Source: an uncultured Clostridia bacterium (lineage in GTDB: Bacteria > Bacillota > Clostridia > Christensenellales > Borkfalkiaceae). From it: a DNA stretch of 64,000 nucleotides. Numbering within the stretch: the first letter of the stretch is position 1; each line of letters opens with the position of its first letter. The stretch covers positions 32,860-96,859 of the forward strand of contig CAJFFD010000002.1 of NCBI GenBank assembly GCA_904373255.1, in the 5' to 3' direction. The notes beneath the pieces were generated by a model. It was not told where the DNA came from. It did no database searches and worked only from the letters and a program-made list of their open reading frames with translations. Positions 9,633 through 40,690 of this stretch are shown in pieces. The translations under genes were made by a program, and so were the position numbers.

Positions 9633-11558
<1,926 letters not shown>

Positions 11559-32660: not shown

Positions 32661-34238
32661 TTATACCAAACCAAGAAGCTCTTGGATTGACGGCCATTTT
32701 TTTGCAACTTCGGCATTATTTGTGGTAATAATATCCTGCGGGGTCGAGTTGCCGCGCAATGCGACGACCGGCTGAACTCCGTTTTCGAAGCATGTGCTGA
32801 CGGACGCAAGTACATAATAGCGCGACTTCGGCTCGCGGTCATACAGGAATCCTTCTTCCGCAGCGGCATTGACGCTCGTGCGGAATTCAGAGAACGTCAT
32901 CCCCGTGCTGTCATAGTCCTGCGTAGGCGCGGCGGGAAGCGTAGCGCCCTGCAATGTTTCGTAATAAATCTGCATCCCTTCATCCGAATACATGAACTTT
33001 AAAAATTCTTTTGCTTCGCGGATATGTGAGCTGTAAGAAGGAACATATGCCTGATGGTCGATGCCGCCAGCCATATAGGAATAATGACGCGCCTCCGTTA
33101 CCTTCTGAATATCTCCTTCGGTAACGCCGGAAGGCATTGCGGGTGATTCGCCCGCATCCACCGCGTCGACGTATTGAATGCATTCTATAAGCTTTTCCTC
33201 CGCAGCGTCTGCGCCGAGCGTACTTCCAAACGAAAGTTTATTGACGAGAGAAGAAATAACGGGCGTTTTGATAACATCTACGCGGGCGGAAGAGAAGTTT
33301 GCCTTCATTTCGTTTTCCAACCACGACCCGTTGACACAGAACAGAGCCTGACCGCGCAGAAATTGCCCTTGCATGCTGGTAAAATCTATGGAAGTTGAGC
33401 GCTCGTGCTGATATCCGTTATCCGGATCCAAAAGCGTTTTCAACACCTTCATCGCCTCAAGCTGCCCGTCGTATGTATAGACATACTGGCTTATTTCGCC
33501 GTCGGGGTCACGCCCTTCCATAAACAGCTTGACGTTGTCCACGCCTTCATACTGACCAAAGAAAATAGTGCTCCAGCCGGTGTAATATTCATCCTCTAAC
33601 GAATATATAAACGGCGCAACCTCTTCTTTGATCTCGTCGCAAAGCGCAAACAATTCGTTTGTGGTATACGGCACATCTTCATCCGTCAGCCCCAGGTCGT
33701 CCCATACATCGAGATTTCGGACAATCCCATACACGCCGCCCGCCCAAGGAAGCGCGTAATATTTCCCTTCAATATTAAACGCTTCTGCATACAGCGGATC
33801 CATTTTGTCCTCGATCGTAAGCTCAGAACCTTCGTCTACAACAGATCCCCATACGTCGGTGAGATCGGCATACAGGCAATCGTATGCCTGACCGCGAACC
33901 GAAATGGAGCCTTTGTATACATCTTCGGCAAACCAACCGCGTTTGTTGAAAAACAAATCTGTATCGCTGGCGAGCGATTCGATTTCCGTATCGAGCGTAC
34001 CCTGCCCCGTCGCTCCAACGACCGTCGAAATATCGACGTTGATCTTTGCTTTTTCTTCAAAAGCCTCCTCCAGAGCATACAGCCAGTCGGTGCCATAGCC
34101 GAGCTGCACCGCGGAAATGTGCAGATACCCGTTTTCGCCGGGTTCGCTCCTCTGCCCCGATCTGTTGCATGCCACAGTGCTCACGCAAAGCAGGCAGGCA
34201 AGACTCGATACAAGTACTTTTTTCAAAGCACCCTTCAT
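32661..34238 (-). CDS. ABC transporter extracellular solute-binding lipoprotein
   Basis: Lipobox CVSTVAC; family 1-like SBP; adjacent to permeases. Confidence 0.88.
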   Translation of the reverse strand: MKGALKKVLVSSLACLLCVSTVACNRSGQRSEPGENGYLHISAVQLGYGTDWLYALEEAFEEKAKINVDISTVVGATGQGTLDTEIESLASDTDLFFNKRGWFAEDVYKGSISVRGQAYDCLYADLTDVWGSVVDEGSELTIEDKMDPLYAEAFNIEGKYYALPWAGGVYGIVRNLDVWDDLGLTDEDVPYTTNELFALCDEIKEEVAPFIYSLEDEYYTGWSTIFFGQYEGVDNVKLFMEGRDPDGEISQYVYTYDGQLEAMKVLKTLLDPDNGYQHERSTSIDFTSMQGQFLRGQALFCVNGSWLENEMKANFSSARVDVIKTPVISSLVNKLSFGSTLGADAAEEKLIECIQYVDAVDAGESPAMPSGVTEGDIQKVTEARHYSYMAGGIDHQAYVPSYSSHIREAKEFLKFMYSDEGMQIYYETLQGATLPAAPTQDYDSTGMTFSEFRTSVNAAAEEGFLYDREPKSRYYVLASVSTCFENGVQPVVALRGNSTPQDIITTNNAEVAKKWPSIQELLGLV

Positions 34239-34315
34239 TATGGACTCCTCCTTTTAATAATTTTTATTGATAAAAGCGCGCCGTGTAGCTCGCATATCAG
34301 CATAAATCTGTTCGA

Positions 34316-35209
34316 TCACTCCTTCAGTCCTCCGAAATATACCTTTTCCATAATCGTGTTTTGGAAGACAACAAACAAGATCAATACGGGGATCAGCGAA
34401 AGTATTACGCCTGCAAAATAAGCCGGAATATTTCCCTGGTATTGCGAGACCTCGCTGTAAGCATAAGTGCCATACGCCAAATTCGGATATTCCGTCATAT
34501 AAGCGGCTGTGCTTTCATAATCATTCCATGCCGTAATAAACTGCATTACAAACAGAGCGATTATACTCGGCAATACCTGCGGCAGCATTATCTGGAATAA
34601 AATCTGATAATGATTCGCCCCGTCGATCGACGCCGCCTCCGCGTAAGAATGGGATATTCCTTTCCAGAACGCATACATGTAAAAGAAATAAGAGCCGTAC
34701 AGCGTTATGCTGACAAGGGTAATGAGCGGACTGTTGATCAAACCCAAATTATAATACAGCCTGTATTGCGCGCCCTGCCCGCCATACAGCGGAAGCATCG
34801 ACACCAGAAGACCAAGCGTATACAGAAAGTGCGTGAATTTTGATCTGTAATGCACAAGCACATAGCACACGATAGCCGTTGTAAACCAAGTAAGGAAGGA
34901 CGACGATGTCGTGCGCCAAATGGAATTCCACAGCATATCCATAAATGTATGTTCACCGTCGACATTTGTCCATTCGGTAAATGCCTGTACATAATTTCCG
35001 AAATTCGGCGGCGTAGGAATGCTGAAAAGATTATAATTGAACTGGTCATCCAAAAAAGTATCCTGGTTCAATTTCAGTGAAATCAGAATCGCATATACAA
35101 AAAAGAATAAAATGAGCAAAGCGTACAAAGCAAACAGTATAAAAGCCACGCTGAACACGATCTTGCGCGATACGGAATTTCCATGACGATTATGTTTGCT
35201 TTTCCGCAT
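34316..35209 (-). CDS. Carbohydrate ABC transporter permease (MalG-like)
   Basis: EAA loop EAASIDGANHYQILFQIMLPQVLPS; multi-TM. Confidence 0.92.
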   Translation of the reverse strand: MRKSKHNRHGNSVSRKIVFSVAFILFALYALLILFFFVYAILISLKLNQDTFLDDQFNYNLFSIPTPPNFGNYVQAFTEWTNVDGEHTFMDMLWNSIWRTTSSSFLTWFTTAIVCYVLVHYRSKFTHFLYTLGLLVSMLPLYGGQGAQYRLYYNLGLINSPLITLVSITLYGSYFFYMYAFWKGISHSYAEAASIDGANHYQILFQIMLPQVLPSIIALFVMQFITAWNDYESTAAYMTEYPNLAYGTYAYSEVSQYQGNIPAYFAGVILSLIPVLILFVVFQNTIMEKVYFGGLKE

Positions 35210-35236
35210 CTATTTTTTAACGTTTTCCATTGCCGT

Positions 35237-36199
35237 TTACTCCTTGCCCTCGCGATACAGAACTTTGCGCAATACCAACACGATCGGGAAAGTTATCACT
35301 GTCATAACAAGACCGATAGCAGAAGCGTAATACATATCCTGCGAAATTGTCGGAACCGCCCCCGTTGCATAACCGTACAACAGGAACGAAAGCGTCTGCG
35401 TATTGTACTCCCCTTGCGTCATGGCGAGAATCGGCCCCGTCGAAGACAGGATACCGGCAAAACTCAATACGATAATCGTGGATATTGTCGGCCAAACCAT
35501 CGGGATCACTAAATGTATAAGCTCCTGAAACCAATTGCAGCCGTCGATTTCGCCCGCCTCCAGCACATCTTCGCTGATAGCGTTCATCGCCCCGCCCAAG
35601 ACGACCATGTTTCCCCCGAAACCGAAAATAACATTATAAATCAGAAGCATAATGATCGCATTGTCGGTAACAAGAGGGTATTCATATGTTTTACCCAAAG
35701 CATGCAAGATTGCTTCGTAAGGGCCGCCGGACATAAAAGTATATTTATACAATATAACCAGAGCGGAACTGCAGATAATCGTGGGCAGGTATGTAACCGT
35801 GCGGAAAACTTTATAGCCGAGAATTTTCTTATAGACGAAATACGCCATCAGAATAGATATCGGCAGCACGATCAACAGCGCGACGGCATAAAAAAGCAAA
35901 GTGTTACGGAGCGCGATTAAAAGATCCCCGTCACGGAAAAAACCTGTAAATACCATTTCAAAATTTTCGAATGTAAAATACAGATGCATCCCCGTCAGGT
36001 CATATTTTTCTCTTTGGAAAGACATCGCAAGCGAATCGAGGTTGACGTATAGCCAAAATACAAGAAAAAATATGATCGGAATCCCCAATAAGCTCGCAAT
36101 AAATAATATCTCCTTCTTTTTTGCGTCGGTAAGCTTCTTTTTGGGTTTATTTTCATGGATGTTCCCATTTTCAGTTTTTACTTCTGCCAATTCTTCCAT
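35237..36199 (-). CDS. Sugar ABC transporter permease (MalF-like)
   Basis: EAGEIDGCNWFQELIHLVIPMVWPTIS EAA loop; multi-TM. Confidence 0.92.
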   Translation of the reverse strand: MEELAEVKTENGNIHENKPKKKLTDAKKKEILFIASLLGIPIIFFLVFWLYVNLDSLAMSFQREKYDLTGMHLYFTFENFEMVFTGFFRDGDLLIALRNTLLFYAVALLIVLPISILMAYFVYKKILGYKVFRTVTYLPTIICSSALVILYKYTFMSGGPYEAILHALGKTYEYPLVTDNAIIMLLIYNVIFGFGGNMVVLGGAMNAISEDVLEAGEIDGCNWFQELIHLVIPMVWPTISTIIVLSFAGILSSTGPILAMTQGEYNTQTLSFLLYGYATGAVPTISQDMYYASAIGLVMTVITFPIVLVLRKVLYREGKE

Positions 36200-36233
36200 A
36201 AGCAATCCCTTCTTACAAATAACCAATAAAGTG

Positions 36234-36277
36234 TTTTTTGAGTTGCATGCAACTCAAAAAAGGGGTACCCCTTTTTT
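36234..36277. promoter_or_regulatory. Two overlapping perfect palindromes upstream of the sugar ABC operon
   Basis: TTTTTTGAGTTGCA|TGCAACTCAAAAAA (36234-36261) and AAAAAAGGGGT|ACCCCTTTTTT (36256-36277) share A6. Confidence 0.85.
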
Positions 36278-36404
36278 CCGAAACTAAACGTATAAAACGC
36301 GATCATTTTTGATCTTCGTTTTTATTGTAATACGCCGTTCCGCCTTTTTCAATATCGAATTGTAGGATAAATATATATTTTTGTCAAATAATATTGTTTT
36401 CATC

Positions 36405-36432
36405 TTGACAAAAATGAAATATGTTATATACT
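36405..36432 (+). promoter_or_regulatory. Sigma-A promoter of the AraC regulator
   Basis: TTGACA - 16 bp - TATACT. Confidence 0.7.
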
Positions 36433-36441
36433 TTTGTTGCA

Positions 36442-37329
36442 ATGATCGAGTATTATTTTTATCAGAGCGCGGCGCCGAACATGGTGCAGTACGCCGCCGA
36501 AATCGATTTTCTTTACCACATCAATCTGTTCGACTGGCCGATCGAACACGGGCATAAGGACTATTGGGAATTTACGATCATGACGAACGGGCAGATCGAC
36601 AATTGCTCCAACGGAAAGGTCAGGACTTACGGCGCCAACAGCGTGTTTATAGCGACCACGGGCGACGTGCATCGCCTGTTGGCTTCCGGAGTGGAACCCG
36701 TGCGTTATATCAATATCATGGTAAAAGAGTCTTTCCTGCAAAATACGGTCGAAAGGCTCTCGCCGGGTTTGCTCGATTACCTCCGCTCCGACGACTTCAG
36801 CCTGACGCTTTCCGGAAACAAGATCAGTGAAATTGAACAGATCCTTCTGCAGGTGAATTATACCAATCCCGAACAATATCAGGAAAACGACAAGTTTATC
36901 TGTTCCGCGTTTCTGCTGCTTGTTTCGGCAATCCTGTTCAGCCGAGCGACGACGTCGCTCAATATTTCCCCCTATCTTGTTTTGCTCAACCAGTTTGCGC
37001 AAAACAATGAACTGCTGACCTGCAACGTAAACGACCTTTGCAAAAAACTCGGCTATTCGCGCGGGCAGCTGAACAATCTTTTCAAAAAGCATTTCGGAAT
37101 TACGCCGCACGAGTATCTCATCGAATATAAATTTAATCATGCGCGCAGGCTGCTTGTCAATACAAACATGACTATATCGGAAATTGCGTTTGCAATCGGC
37201 TACGCCAATCCGATGCAGTTCTACACGACCTTTAAAAAACTTTTCGGCGTTACGCCGAACCGGTACCGGAGCAACGGACACGCACTCGTTCCGCAAAATA
37301 AAGTTCAAACCAAAAAGGAGCAGCAATGA
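36442..37329 (+). CDS. AraC family transcriptional regulator
   Basis: C-terminal double HTH: MTISEIAFAIGYANPMQFYTTFKKLFGVTPNRYR. Confidence 0.92.
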   Translation: MIEYYFYQSAAPNMVQYAAEIDFLYHINLFDWPIEHGHKDYWEFTIMTNGQIDNCSNGKVRTYGANSVFIATTGDVHRLLASGVEPVRYINIMVKESFLQNTVERLSPGLLDYLRSDDFSLTLSGNKISEIEQILLQVNYTNPEQYQENDKFICSAFLLLVSAILFSRATTSLNISPYLVLLNQFAQNNELLTCNVNDLCKKLGYSRGQLNNLFKKHFGITPHEYLIEYKFNHARRLLVNTNMTISEIAFAIGYANPMQFYTTFKKLFGVTPNRYRSNGHALVPQNKVQTKKEQQ

Positions 37330-38717
37330 AAAAGTTAACAAGCGCATTGGCGATCGGCTCTTTGAGCCTATGCATGCTTTCCGCCTGCGCCCCCTCTCAA
37401 CCGCCGGAGCCGAAGCAGTATGAAGGCGAAAATTTTACGACGACCGCGTGGTGGGCGCCCTACGAAATTTCTGAGGAAAGTTTTCAGCTCTATAAGGACG
37501 CAGGGCTGAATACCATGATTTTTGTCAACCATTCGCGCGCGGCGACGGATGACACCCTCTCGGACACACGCTACTATTTAGGCTCCGCCCTGACAATGCA
37601 AACCCTGGAAATGTGCCGCAAAACAGGGCTTGACGCGATAATCTCGGAGGGAAAAGGATACAAAGACCAGGGCGGCACCCCCTTTACCGAAAATGATTTA
37701 TACGGCGACTACAGCGACATCATCAAGGGTGTTCACATTGCCGACGAACCGAGCGCAGCGGTAATGCGCGAGTACTGCACCGCGGAACGCATCGAGGATT
37801 TCAAAAAAGTATATTCTGTACCGTATATCATCAATCTGCACCCCGTCACGGCGGCTGGCACAAGCACCGGCACGCTTACATATGCCGAATATTTGCAGGT
37901 ATATGAAGAATGCGTTCTGCAAAATTTCCCGAATACGCCCTATATTTCCGTCGACTTTTATCCGTTCCATACCGACGAATACGCAACGATGGACAGGCAA
38001 TGGATTTCCTGTTACGAGCAAATTTCAAAACTGGCGGCAGAGTATGGAGCGGAAACAAACTTTTATATCCAGACTTCGGAAGGAAACGAGTTTACCGACA
38101 GCCTGACCGAGGCAGACATACGCTATCAAATTTATGTCGCGCTGTGTTTCGGCGGAAGCTCTTTTTCCTACTACTGCTACTCCGTGCCGGACAATAACAG
38201 CAATTATACCGAAGGAAGCGTAGCGAATCCCATGTATATCGCTTGTCTTTTGGATCAGGACAATAAGCCGACCGATCTTTATAATTATGTCAAAGAGATC
38301 AATGCCGAAATCCAGTCGTTTGCAGCCGCTTTCAATTCGTATAGTTTTACAAAATGTATGGCAGTCTGCGTACAGACTTACGGAGCTGACAACTTCAAAT
38401 CCGAGTTATATGCCATGAATACCCCGCTTGATTTTTCAGACAGGCGTTATATTGCGAATATTGAAACGGAGGGAAACTGCCTGGTCGGCTGCTTTGACCG
38501 CGCGGAGGACGAGGCATATATGTTGGCAAACTACGGCTACCCCGACGAAACGCAAGCGATTGAACTGACGATCACTTTAAAGGGCGGCGCGACGCACCTT
38601 GCCGTTTACGGAGGCGACGGATACAGCGGCACGCCCGAGGTCATCGCGGCGCGAGACGGAAAAGTTACCCTCAGCATCGCCCCCGGCGACGGAAAATTCG
38701 TGGTACCCCTCCTATAA
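37326..38717 (+). CDS. Lipoprotein, putative TIM-barrel glycoside-hydrolase-like protein
   Basis: Lipobox LCMLSAC; FTTTAWWAPYEISEESFQLYKDAGLNTMIFVNHSR; overlaps the AraC stop codon. Confidence 0.6.
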   Translation: MKKLTSALAIGSLSLCMLSACAPSQPPEPKQYEGENFTTTAWWAPYEISEESFQLYKDAGLNTMIFVNHSRAATDDTLSDTRYYLGSALTMQTLEMCRKTGLDAIISEGKGYKDQGGTPFTENDLYGDYSDIIKGVHIADEPSAAVMREYCTAERIEDFKKVYSVPYIINLHPVTAAGTSTGTLTYAEYLQVYEECVLQNFPNTPYISVDFYPFHTDEYATMDRQWISCYEQISKLAAEYGAETNFYIQTSEGNEFTDSLTEADIRYQIYVALCFGGSSFSYYCYSVPDNNSNYTEGSVANPMYIACLLDQDNKPTDLYNYVKEINAEIQSFAAAFNSYSFTKCMAVCVQTYGADNFKSELYAMNTPLDFSDRRYIANIETEGNCLVGCFDRAEDEAYMLANYGYPDETQAIELTITLKGGATHLAVYGGDGYSGTPEVIAARDGKVTLSIAPGDGKFVVPLL

Positions 38718-38913: not shown

Positions 38914-39681
38914 TCAGCCGTTCATCAAACCTTCCAATATAAGTTTATCCGCAACGAGGGCAATGAACTCACTGTTTGTCGGCTTTTCCGTTCCGATATA
39001 GACGCGCACACCGAATACGGCGTTGATCGCATCGATCCGCTGCCTGTTCCATGCGACTTCGATGCTGTGGCGGATTGCCCGTTCCACTTTGCTCGCCGTT
39101 GTATCAAATTTTTCCGCAATTTTCGGGTACAGCTGTTTGGTGATATTATTTATTATGGCGGGATTTTCTACCGCCATCTTAATCCCTTCCCGCAGATAGG
39201 CGTAGCCTTTGATATGCGGCGGAATGCCGATCGATATAAAAATGTTGCTGATCTTTTCGTCTAACAAAACGATATTCTTCCTGTCATTCCCGACAACGGA
39301 AGTGCGCGCATCCGGCTCCGCAAAAATCTCGCCGAGGCGCGCGGCGACCTGCGAAGCGTTTACGGGGCGCATCATATAATATCGGGCGCCCTTTTGCAGA
39401 ATCAGATCGATCGTTGCGTCGTCGCTGAAATTTCCAGACGCCAGCACCGCGCAGCGCGCGTGCATTTCGCGCAGCTTGTCCAGAACGCCGAACCCATCGA
39501 CATTTTTCAGCGTCATGCCGACAAGCATGGCGTCCGGGTCATATTCTTTCACCAGCTCTTCCGCTTTTTCGCCGTCATCGCTGACCGCGCACACTTCAAA
39601 ACCAGCATTGCGCAGTTCTGAACTGATTGCAGCCGCTGCCTCACCATTGCCTTCCAATACAACAATTTTCTTCTGTTGCAT
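38914..39681 (-). CDS. spo0A: Spo0A homologue with degenerate receiver domain
   Basis: Spo0A_C: GIPPHIKGYAYLREGIKMA...TTASKVERAIRHSIEVAWNRQRIDAI...KPTNSEFIALVADKL; receiver lacks catalytic residues. Confidence 0.9.
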   Translation of the reverse strand: MQQKKIVVLEGNGEAAAAISSELRNAGFEVCAVSDDGEKAEELVKEYDPDAMLVGMTLKNVDGFGVLDKLREMHARCAVLASGNFSDDATIDLILQKGARYYMMRPVNASQVAARLGEIFAEPDARTSVVGNDRKNIVLLDEKISNIFISIGIPPHIKGYAYLREGIKMAVENPAIINNITKQLYPKIAEKFDTTASKVERAIRHSIEVAWNRQRIDAINAVFGVRVYIGTEKPTNSEFIALVADKLILEGLMNG

Positions 39682-39837
39682 TTTTGCCTCCTTACTTTGC
39701 GAAAAATAATTTTTATATTCTTATTATAGCGAAAGGTCGGCTTTTTGTTAAGCATTTTTTAAACGAATTTTAATTTATTTTCAATATTTTATAAAAAATA
39801 ATTGCGCATATTGTCGAATTTTGTAAAAATTAAAAAA

Positions 39838-40641
39838 TCAATTATGATGGGACAGAAATGCCCGCAAATTTTCAGAAAAAATTCTGTCGACAGATGAATC
39901 TGAATAGCCGGCCAGCAACAGTCTCTCCCGCAGGCGCGGCAAGTCCGCGTACCCACGAATGCCCTGCGGCAAATTGTCCGTTCCGTTAAAATCGCTTCCT
40001 ATACAAATTGACTCAATGCCAAATTTTTGCACGCAATAATCGATGTGACGGTAAACATCCTCCGCCGAGGCTGCCCCATCTTCCTTCAAAAAACCGGCAA
40101 CAAAGGCAATACCGATCAGTCCGCCGCGGGAGACGATTTCTTGCGCCTGCCAGTCCTCCAGGTTCCGCGGGTGGCGGCAGATTCCGTTCATGCAGGTATG
40201 CGAATCGACAAGTCTGCCCGATTCACATTTCAGAACTTCGGCAAAGCTCTTCCTGTTCAGATGGGCGCAGTCGATGCAAATACCGCATTCCGCCAGAAAT
40301 CGGACGGCGAACTTACCCTTCGGCGTCAGTTCGCCGTCATCCATACAGCCACCCGCCAACGGATTGGCTCCGTTCCAGGTCAAAGAAGCATAGACGGGGT
40401 TCCACGCCCGGATCTCTTCAGCCGTTTCCGGAGTAAAATACCCTATGTCCTCCAACCCCAAAAATAAATTTCGTCGCTTTTCTTTATTAAAGCGAAGCGC
40501 AATGGAGCGCAGCTGCGCAAAACTCCGGTTTCCCCGGAATAACGCGCATACGCAGCAGACAGTTTCGCGCGAAAGCATTTCAATCCTGCCCGACGCGGTA
40601 AGAATATCGTTGTGAAAATCGGCAATGCGATTATCCGGCAT
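39838..40641 (-). CDS. M19-family membrane dipeptidase
   Basis: IADFHNDILTA (HxD), DCAHLNRKSF, DSHTCMNGICRHPRNL, GIGSDFNGTD-like motif. Confidence 0.85.
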   Translation of the reverse strand: MPDNRIADFHNDILTASGRIEMLSRETVCCVCALFRGNRSFAQLRSIALRFNKEKRRNLFLGLEDIGYFTPETAEEIRAWNPVYASLTWNGANPLAGGCMDDGELTPKGKFAVRFLAECGICIDCAHLNRKSFAEVLKCESGRLVDSHTCMNGICRHPRNLEDWQAQEIVSRGGLIGIAFVAGFLKEDGAASAEDVYRHIDYCVQKFGIESICIGSDFNGTDNLPQGIRGYADLPRLRERLLLAGYSDSSVDRIFSENLRAFLSHHN

Positions 40642-40690
40642 CGATTCGCTTATATTATACATATAATATATGATATGCGGGAAAAAATAC

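Follow-up and report, generated by a model that had tools for sequence, protein, structure and literature searches.

The window, a 64,000-nucleotide stretch of a contig from an uncultured Clostridia bacterium, contains an intact minus-strand open reading frame with an ATG start codon that encodes a homolog of Spo0A; a strong Shine-Dalgarno sequence, a 0A box and a gene for an M19 dipeptidase lie upstream (Table 1). Positions 32661-38717 encode a substrate-binding lipoprotein, ABC permeases, an AraC-type regulator and a secreted protein that belongs to no Pfam family, and look like an ordinary carbohydrate-use locus. The window genome (G000; 1.92 Mb in 165 contigs, 73% complete), like the other sequences used here, is a metagenome assembly. 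Its named close relatives include B. faecipullorum, B. faecavium, B. excrementavium and others; on the strength of these relatives, a published survey (PMC11536998) and the GTDB taxonomy, the window genome is a Candidatus Borkfalkia, in the family Borkfalkiaceae of the order Christensenellales.

Table 1. Features of the spo0A locus, in window coordinates
Feature	Position	Strand	Basis
spo0A homolog, 255 aa, pseudo-receiver plus Spo0A_C effector	38914..39681	-	Pfam, TIGR02875, alignment
Receiver-fold domain without catalytic residues, residues 4-120	39322..39672	-	Response_reg, AlphaFold, PDB matches
Spo0A_C DNA-binding effector, residues 140-250	38932..39264	-	Pfam, alignment
E10-G11 in place of the metal-binding pair D10-D11	39649..39654	-	Profile against 9phz and pairwise alignment
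G55 (GGC) in place of the phospho-acceptor D56	39517..39519	-	Sequence, profile, pairwise alignment
G83 in place of the conserved T86	39433..39435	-	Profile and pairwise alignment
R105 in place of the conserved K108	39367..39369	-	Pairwise alignment
Shine-Dalgarno sequence AAGGAGG, strong	39687..39693 (+ strand numbering)	-	Read from sequence
0A box TTCGACA, 137 bp upstream of the spo0A start	39812..39818	-	Conserved position and orientation
M19 dipeptidase gene, upstream of spo0A	39838..40662	-	Pfam and neighborhood comparison

The encoded protein matches the Pfam domains Spo0A_C (PF08769; 135.5 bits) and Response_reg (PF00072; 46.7 bits, with a cut-off of 30.2) and passes as a full-length Spo0A under the TIGR02875 spore_0_A equivalog model (210.2 bits, with a cut-off of 200). 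In pairwise alignment with Bacillus subtilis Spo0A, 67 of 116 effector positions (58%) and 29 of 122 receiver positions are identical; helix 194-211 of the effector is nearly the same in the two proteins, and E213, R214 and R217 are present. Thus, the original prediction of a Spo0A homolog with a well-conserved effector is borne out. AlphaFold confidently predicts both a receiver fold (pLDDT of about 82-97 across blocks) and the effector. The structure matches of the model include receiver-fold PDB entries (target TM of about 0.9), among them the FrzS receiver, and experimental structures of the Spo0A effector (1fc3; target TM of 0.89).

All five catalytic positions of the receiver are substituted relative to B. 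subtilis Spo0A (D10>E10, D11>G11, D56>G55, T86>G83 and K108>R105), and P60>K59 is changed as well. Neither the acceptor Asp nor the acidic pair of a phosphorylation-controlled response regulator is present; the combination of a PF00072 match and a receiver fold with the loss of the catalytic residues is that of a pseudo-receiver. The alignment with the solved chain of 9phz independently yields the same columns as the pairwise alignment. Indeed, a profile of 59 family members aligns with this solved Spo0A receiver over the same columns (E=1.7e-21) and places no conserved Asp at the acceptor position, so that misalignment does not hide such a residue. The original prediction that the receiver is dead, with the acidic pair replaced by Glu-Gly, the acceptor by Gly and the Lys by Arg, therefore agrees with the alignments, and ordinary Asp phosphorylation appears impossible given the loss of five catalytic residues. 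One detail has to be corrected: the conserved Thr, thought to be replaced by Ala, aligns with Gly83, and in other genera with Ser. The substitutions are not chance events because they recur across the genus and the family, and wherever another response regulator or receiver fragment of the window genome could be read, it is canonical. The latter observation, together with the presence of three HisKA kinases, each adjoining a regulator, rules out a general loss of two-component signaling. Nearly all Borkfalkia HisKA kinases that were checked adjoin their own regulator, with one exception (contig C1 of G030); this lack of orphan kinases is not discriminating because in the relative G048, the Spo0A of which is canonical, all three HisKA kinases likewise lie beside their own regulators.

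Alignment of orthologs, proposed in the original prediction as a check on how far the loss extends, shows that it is not only lineage-wide but spans the family: none of the 80 named Borkfalkiaceae loci encodes an intact catalytic set. The acceptor position is occupied by Ser in 38 loci, Gly in 20, Asn in 12 and Asp in 10, and the position of D11 by Ser in 53, Gly in 18 and Asn in 9, without a single acidic residue; the Lys at the position of K108, an Arg in the window protein, is retained in 73 of the 80. In Borkfalkia, the acceptor Asp is absent (Gly or Ser) from every full-length Spo0A receiver examined. Other genera of the family display graded patterns, namely, Q-D-D-S/C-K (g26), Q-D-E-S-K (g28, g30 and g31), E-E-N-S-K, E-S-S-G-K and others. 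Most of the other Christensenellales families retain the acceptor Asp, with partial erosion in G041, G045, G054 and G044. Spo0A_C was found in 164 of the 173 good Borkfalkiaceae genomes, and in a quick tree, the main copies from this family form one group (97% SH-aLRT) that includes one long-branched row from another family. Judging from the graded patterns across genera and the grouping of the family in the tree, the receiver loss in Borkfalkiaceae is old and stepwise, and the spread of the graded pattern over the whole family rules out assembly error as its source.

The receiver is still under selection. For two close pairs, its dN/dS is about 0.07, and a value of 0.19 is obtained when the window gene is compared with L071; the effector values in the same three comparisons are 0.01-0.03. 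The medians over all usable pairs, in most of which dS is high, are 0.39 and 0.12, respectively. By this measure, spo0A is shown to be under purifying selection in Borkfalkiaceae. Relative to the canonical Spo0A of other families, the conservation ratio is 0.86 and 0.88 in the two catalytic loops and 1.33 in the effector, and is raised in the beta4-alpha4 loop (2.42), alpha4 (1.83), beta5 (1.51) and alpha5 (1.58). This comparison is only approximate because the two sets are equal neither in divergence nor in depth. The face with raised conservation is the dimerization surface in many response regulators. The family receivers also share conserved replacement motifs (E-S/G-N, LK..DG, GNFSDD and YYLMKPV) and, frequently but not universally, a Cys at residue 31 that could serve in redox control. 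The conserved motifs, the dN/dS values and the profile match to 9phz rule out misalignment or a pseudogene.

The sites that Spo0A is expected to bind are conserved as well. Of 77 loci, 42 have TTCGACA between positions -150 and -100 relative to spo0A, and the sequences flanking the motif have diverged; a background frequency of 0.23 per kb would predict about 0.5. Within 400 bp of spo0A, 55 such sites share one orientation and 4 have the opposite one. The loci are related, so the 42 occurrences are not independent events; the orientation bias is nonetheless strong. Upstream of spoIIAA, TTCGNCA is present in the same orientation in 11 of 20 loci and in the opposite orientation in one; the sequence in the window genome is TTCGTCA, and this genome thus carries 0A-box motifs at both the spo0A and the spoIIA promoters. 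Given the conservation of the boxes at these two promoters, the effector has probably kept its usual targets. Directly downstream of the 0A box, at about 39740-39825 of the window and in many other loci of the family, lie GTACAAAAT/TTTTACAAAA-like repeated motifs.

The original prediction named the vicinity of spoIVB and recN as the place to look for a canonical second copy. None was found in the window genome, which yields a single Spo0A_C match at its 73% completeness, or in Borkfalkia relatives, including genomes of the same genus at 91-96% completeness (G013, G016, G005, G031 and G030). The usual spo0A site, argR-recN-spoIVB, lies on this contig as well, at a distance of about 42 kb from the window spo0A (spoIVB: PF05580, 237 bits); spo0A is absent after recN-spoIVB, where another gene stands. 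The additional copies seen in other genera of the family are either short or degenerate; three of them (G067b, G090b and G239b) retain E-D-D and are very divergent. Many Borkfalkia share a spo0A-M19-cyclophilin-ComEB-groESL neighborhood (with a ComEB-like deaminase), and the neighbors of spo0A vary between genera. In G030, the M19-groESL site, where Borkfalkia usually carries the main spo0A, is occupied by a copy from which most of the receiver is gone (L339, G030:C9, about 9719-10021), and the main spo0A lies elsewhere. In other Christensenellales families, a second spo0A is found at or near recN/spoIVB (L052, L053, L056, L057, L059, L066, L067, L069 and L070); it has often degenerated or consists of the DNA-binding domain only. 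Elsewhere in the order, there are Spo0A_C proteins of about 110-150 aa that lack a receiver, which shows that some copies can lose this domain completely.

Of the early sporulation genes tested, most are retained. The window genome encodes SpoIIAB (186 bits, above the cut-off), SpoIIAA (TIGR02886, 74 bits, below the cut-off, with the DSAG motif present), a SigF-type factor, a SigG fragment, SpoIVB, SpoIVA, SpoIIR and two SpoVA proteins; in the relative G016, SigE scores over its cut-off and SpoIIGA is recognizable. SpoIIR is present in all 33 Borkfalkiaceae genomes tested and SpoVA in 32 of them, and SigF/SigG-type factors were found in the genomes tested, all of which weakens the case for a sporulation-free relic. 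The alpha/beta-type SASP are absent from all 33 of these genomes and the SASP protease GPR from 32; among 11 genomes of sister families, all encode GPR and five encode SASP. Either Borkfalkiaceae would form spores without SASP or the program would have a different ending. In many Borkfalkia, including the window genome (G000:C78, L194:1958-3289), the middle and C-terminal domains of SpoIVA are intact and its ATPase domain is very divergent (32 bits, whereas relatives score over 300); in the window genome, these intact domains rule out that the weak ATPase matches come from the Der GTPase.

Taken together, the comparisons establish the family-wide loss of catalytic residues, purifying selection, conserved 0A boxes and a retained sporulation sigma cascade. 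Each of the three modes of control envisaged in the original prediction, namely, constitutive activity, ligand gating and regulation by abundance, is possible. The 0A boxes, the shifted constraint on the receiver and the receiver-less relatives, all of them features of the sequences, favor a constitutive competence for DNA binding combined with control by amount. The explanation that we prefer, and to which we would give about an even chance of being correct, is a phosphorylation-independent, DNA-binding-competent Spo0A with output set mainly by its amount and with autoregulation at its 0A box. Under this explanation, the receiver of Borkfalkia Spo0A has become a pseudo-receiver that cannot be phosphorylated at the usual Asp position, and the protein would pair and bind DNA in the unphosphorylated state, recognizing through its effector the 0A boxes before spo0A and the spoIIA (sigma-F) operon. 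The decision would then be set by the amount of Spo0A, through transcription, including autoregulation via its own 0A box, and turnover, and Spo0A would still start a sporulation program. Receiver-deletion alleles of B. subtilis spo0A that are active without phosphorylation are known from the older literature. Against this reading, the loss of SASP and GPR could mean that sporulation is decaying and that Spo0A controls something else.

A pseudo-receiver gated by a ligand or partner, in which a small molecule or protein toggles DNA binding as in JadR1, RedZ or Rem-MirA, is a somewhat unlikely but serious alternative. In nearly all members of the family, the receiver has not been deleted but is retained under constraint, its replacement motifs are conserved, and mechanisms of this kind are established for other pseudo-receivers (PMC12632262). 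However, no ligand or conserved partner gene was found, the neighbors of spo0A change between genera, and the residues of the catalytic pocket also differ among genera (S, G, N, D or E), which argues against a single shared pocket ligand. We consider it unlikely that the family is simply losing sporulation, with the receiver eroding under relaxed selection and Spo0A persisting as a relic or acting on non-sporulation genes. The missing SASP and GPR, the divergent SpoIVA ATPase domain, the small genomes and the faster evolution of the receiver compared with the effector all point in this direction; however, SpoIIR, SpoVA and the SigF/SigG-type factors persist, the 0A boxes are conserved, nearly all good genomes carry Spo0A, and the receiver dN/dS is below 1. 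Residual or alternative phosphorylation, either of the Ser/Thr type at the Ser that most commonly replaces the acceptor or on another Asp, could draw on the acceptor Asp retained in 10 of the 80 loci and on the Q-D-D-S/C-K pattern of g26 but is quite improbable because Asn, Gly and Glu are used at the acceptor site as well, so that no single modification fits, and the window protein has Gly at both the acceptor and the D11 positions and Arg in place of Lys.

Phosphorylation of Spo0A is regarded as the universal gate into sporulation, and the finding is surprising because the change affects the very regulator whose phosphorylation defines sporulation entry. With Spo0A, 0A boxes and a compartment-specific sigma cascade but without the phospho-switch, Borkfalkiaceae would separate DNA binding by Spo0A from its phosphorylation. 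Tentatively, and with the balance still somewhat against it, we propose that in this family (18 genera sampled) the sigma-F/E/G program is started without Spo0A phosphorylation and yields spores lacking SASP and GPR, which would make it the first lineage to have exchanged the phospho-switch for one that responds to concentration or to a ligand. The family also offers a natural experiment on pseudo-receivers, which are common and the control of which is an open question (PMC12632262). In gut metagenomes, the presence of spo0A serves as a genomic marker of spore-forming potential, and Borkfalkiaceae have been rated potentially sporulating partly on these grounds (PMC11536998); this marker should be read together with the receiver residues. 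The literature searched, with most subscription journals outside its coverage, yielded no account of a pseudo-receiver in Spo0A.

The window protein shares with the Spo0A of Bacillus and Clostridia (TIGR02875; PF00072 plus PF08769) the domain order and the residues of the recognition helix, and in Borkfalkia, as in those bacteria, a 0A box precedes both spo0A and spoIIA. Unlike them, it lacks the acceptor Asp, the metal-binding pair, the Thr and the Lys, and its gene lies away from the recN-spoIVB site; in Clostridioides difficile, the conserved Asp of Spo0A is critical for phosphorylation and dimerization (PMC11210211). In other Christensenellales families, the Spo0A encoded at the spoIVB site is also degenerate or receiver-free in several genomes, but most of these genomes encode another Spo0A, the receiver of which is better preserved; Borkfalkia has no such second protein. 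Epulopiscium type B resembles Borkfalkiaceae in retaining Spo0A alongside a modified sporulation program; however, it keeps the phospho-acceptor residues, SASP and gpr (PMC3416734), all of which are missing in Borkfalkiaceae, save that some genera retain an acceptor Asp and a single genome encodes GPR. The closest parallels to the receiver itself are the aspartate-less atypical response regulators, such as ChxR, HP1043, FrzS, JadR1 and GlnR (PMC12632262, PMC4395418), which likewise combine the PF00072 fold with the loss of catalytic residues; in contrast to these, the effector of the window protein is Spo0A_C, and the loss has occurred in a developmental master regulator and throughout an entire bacterial family.
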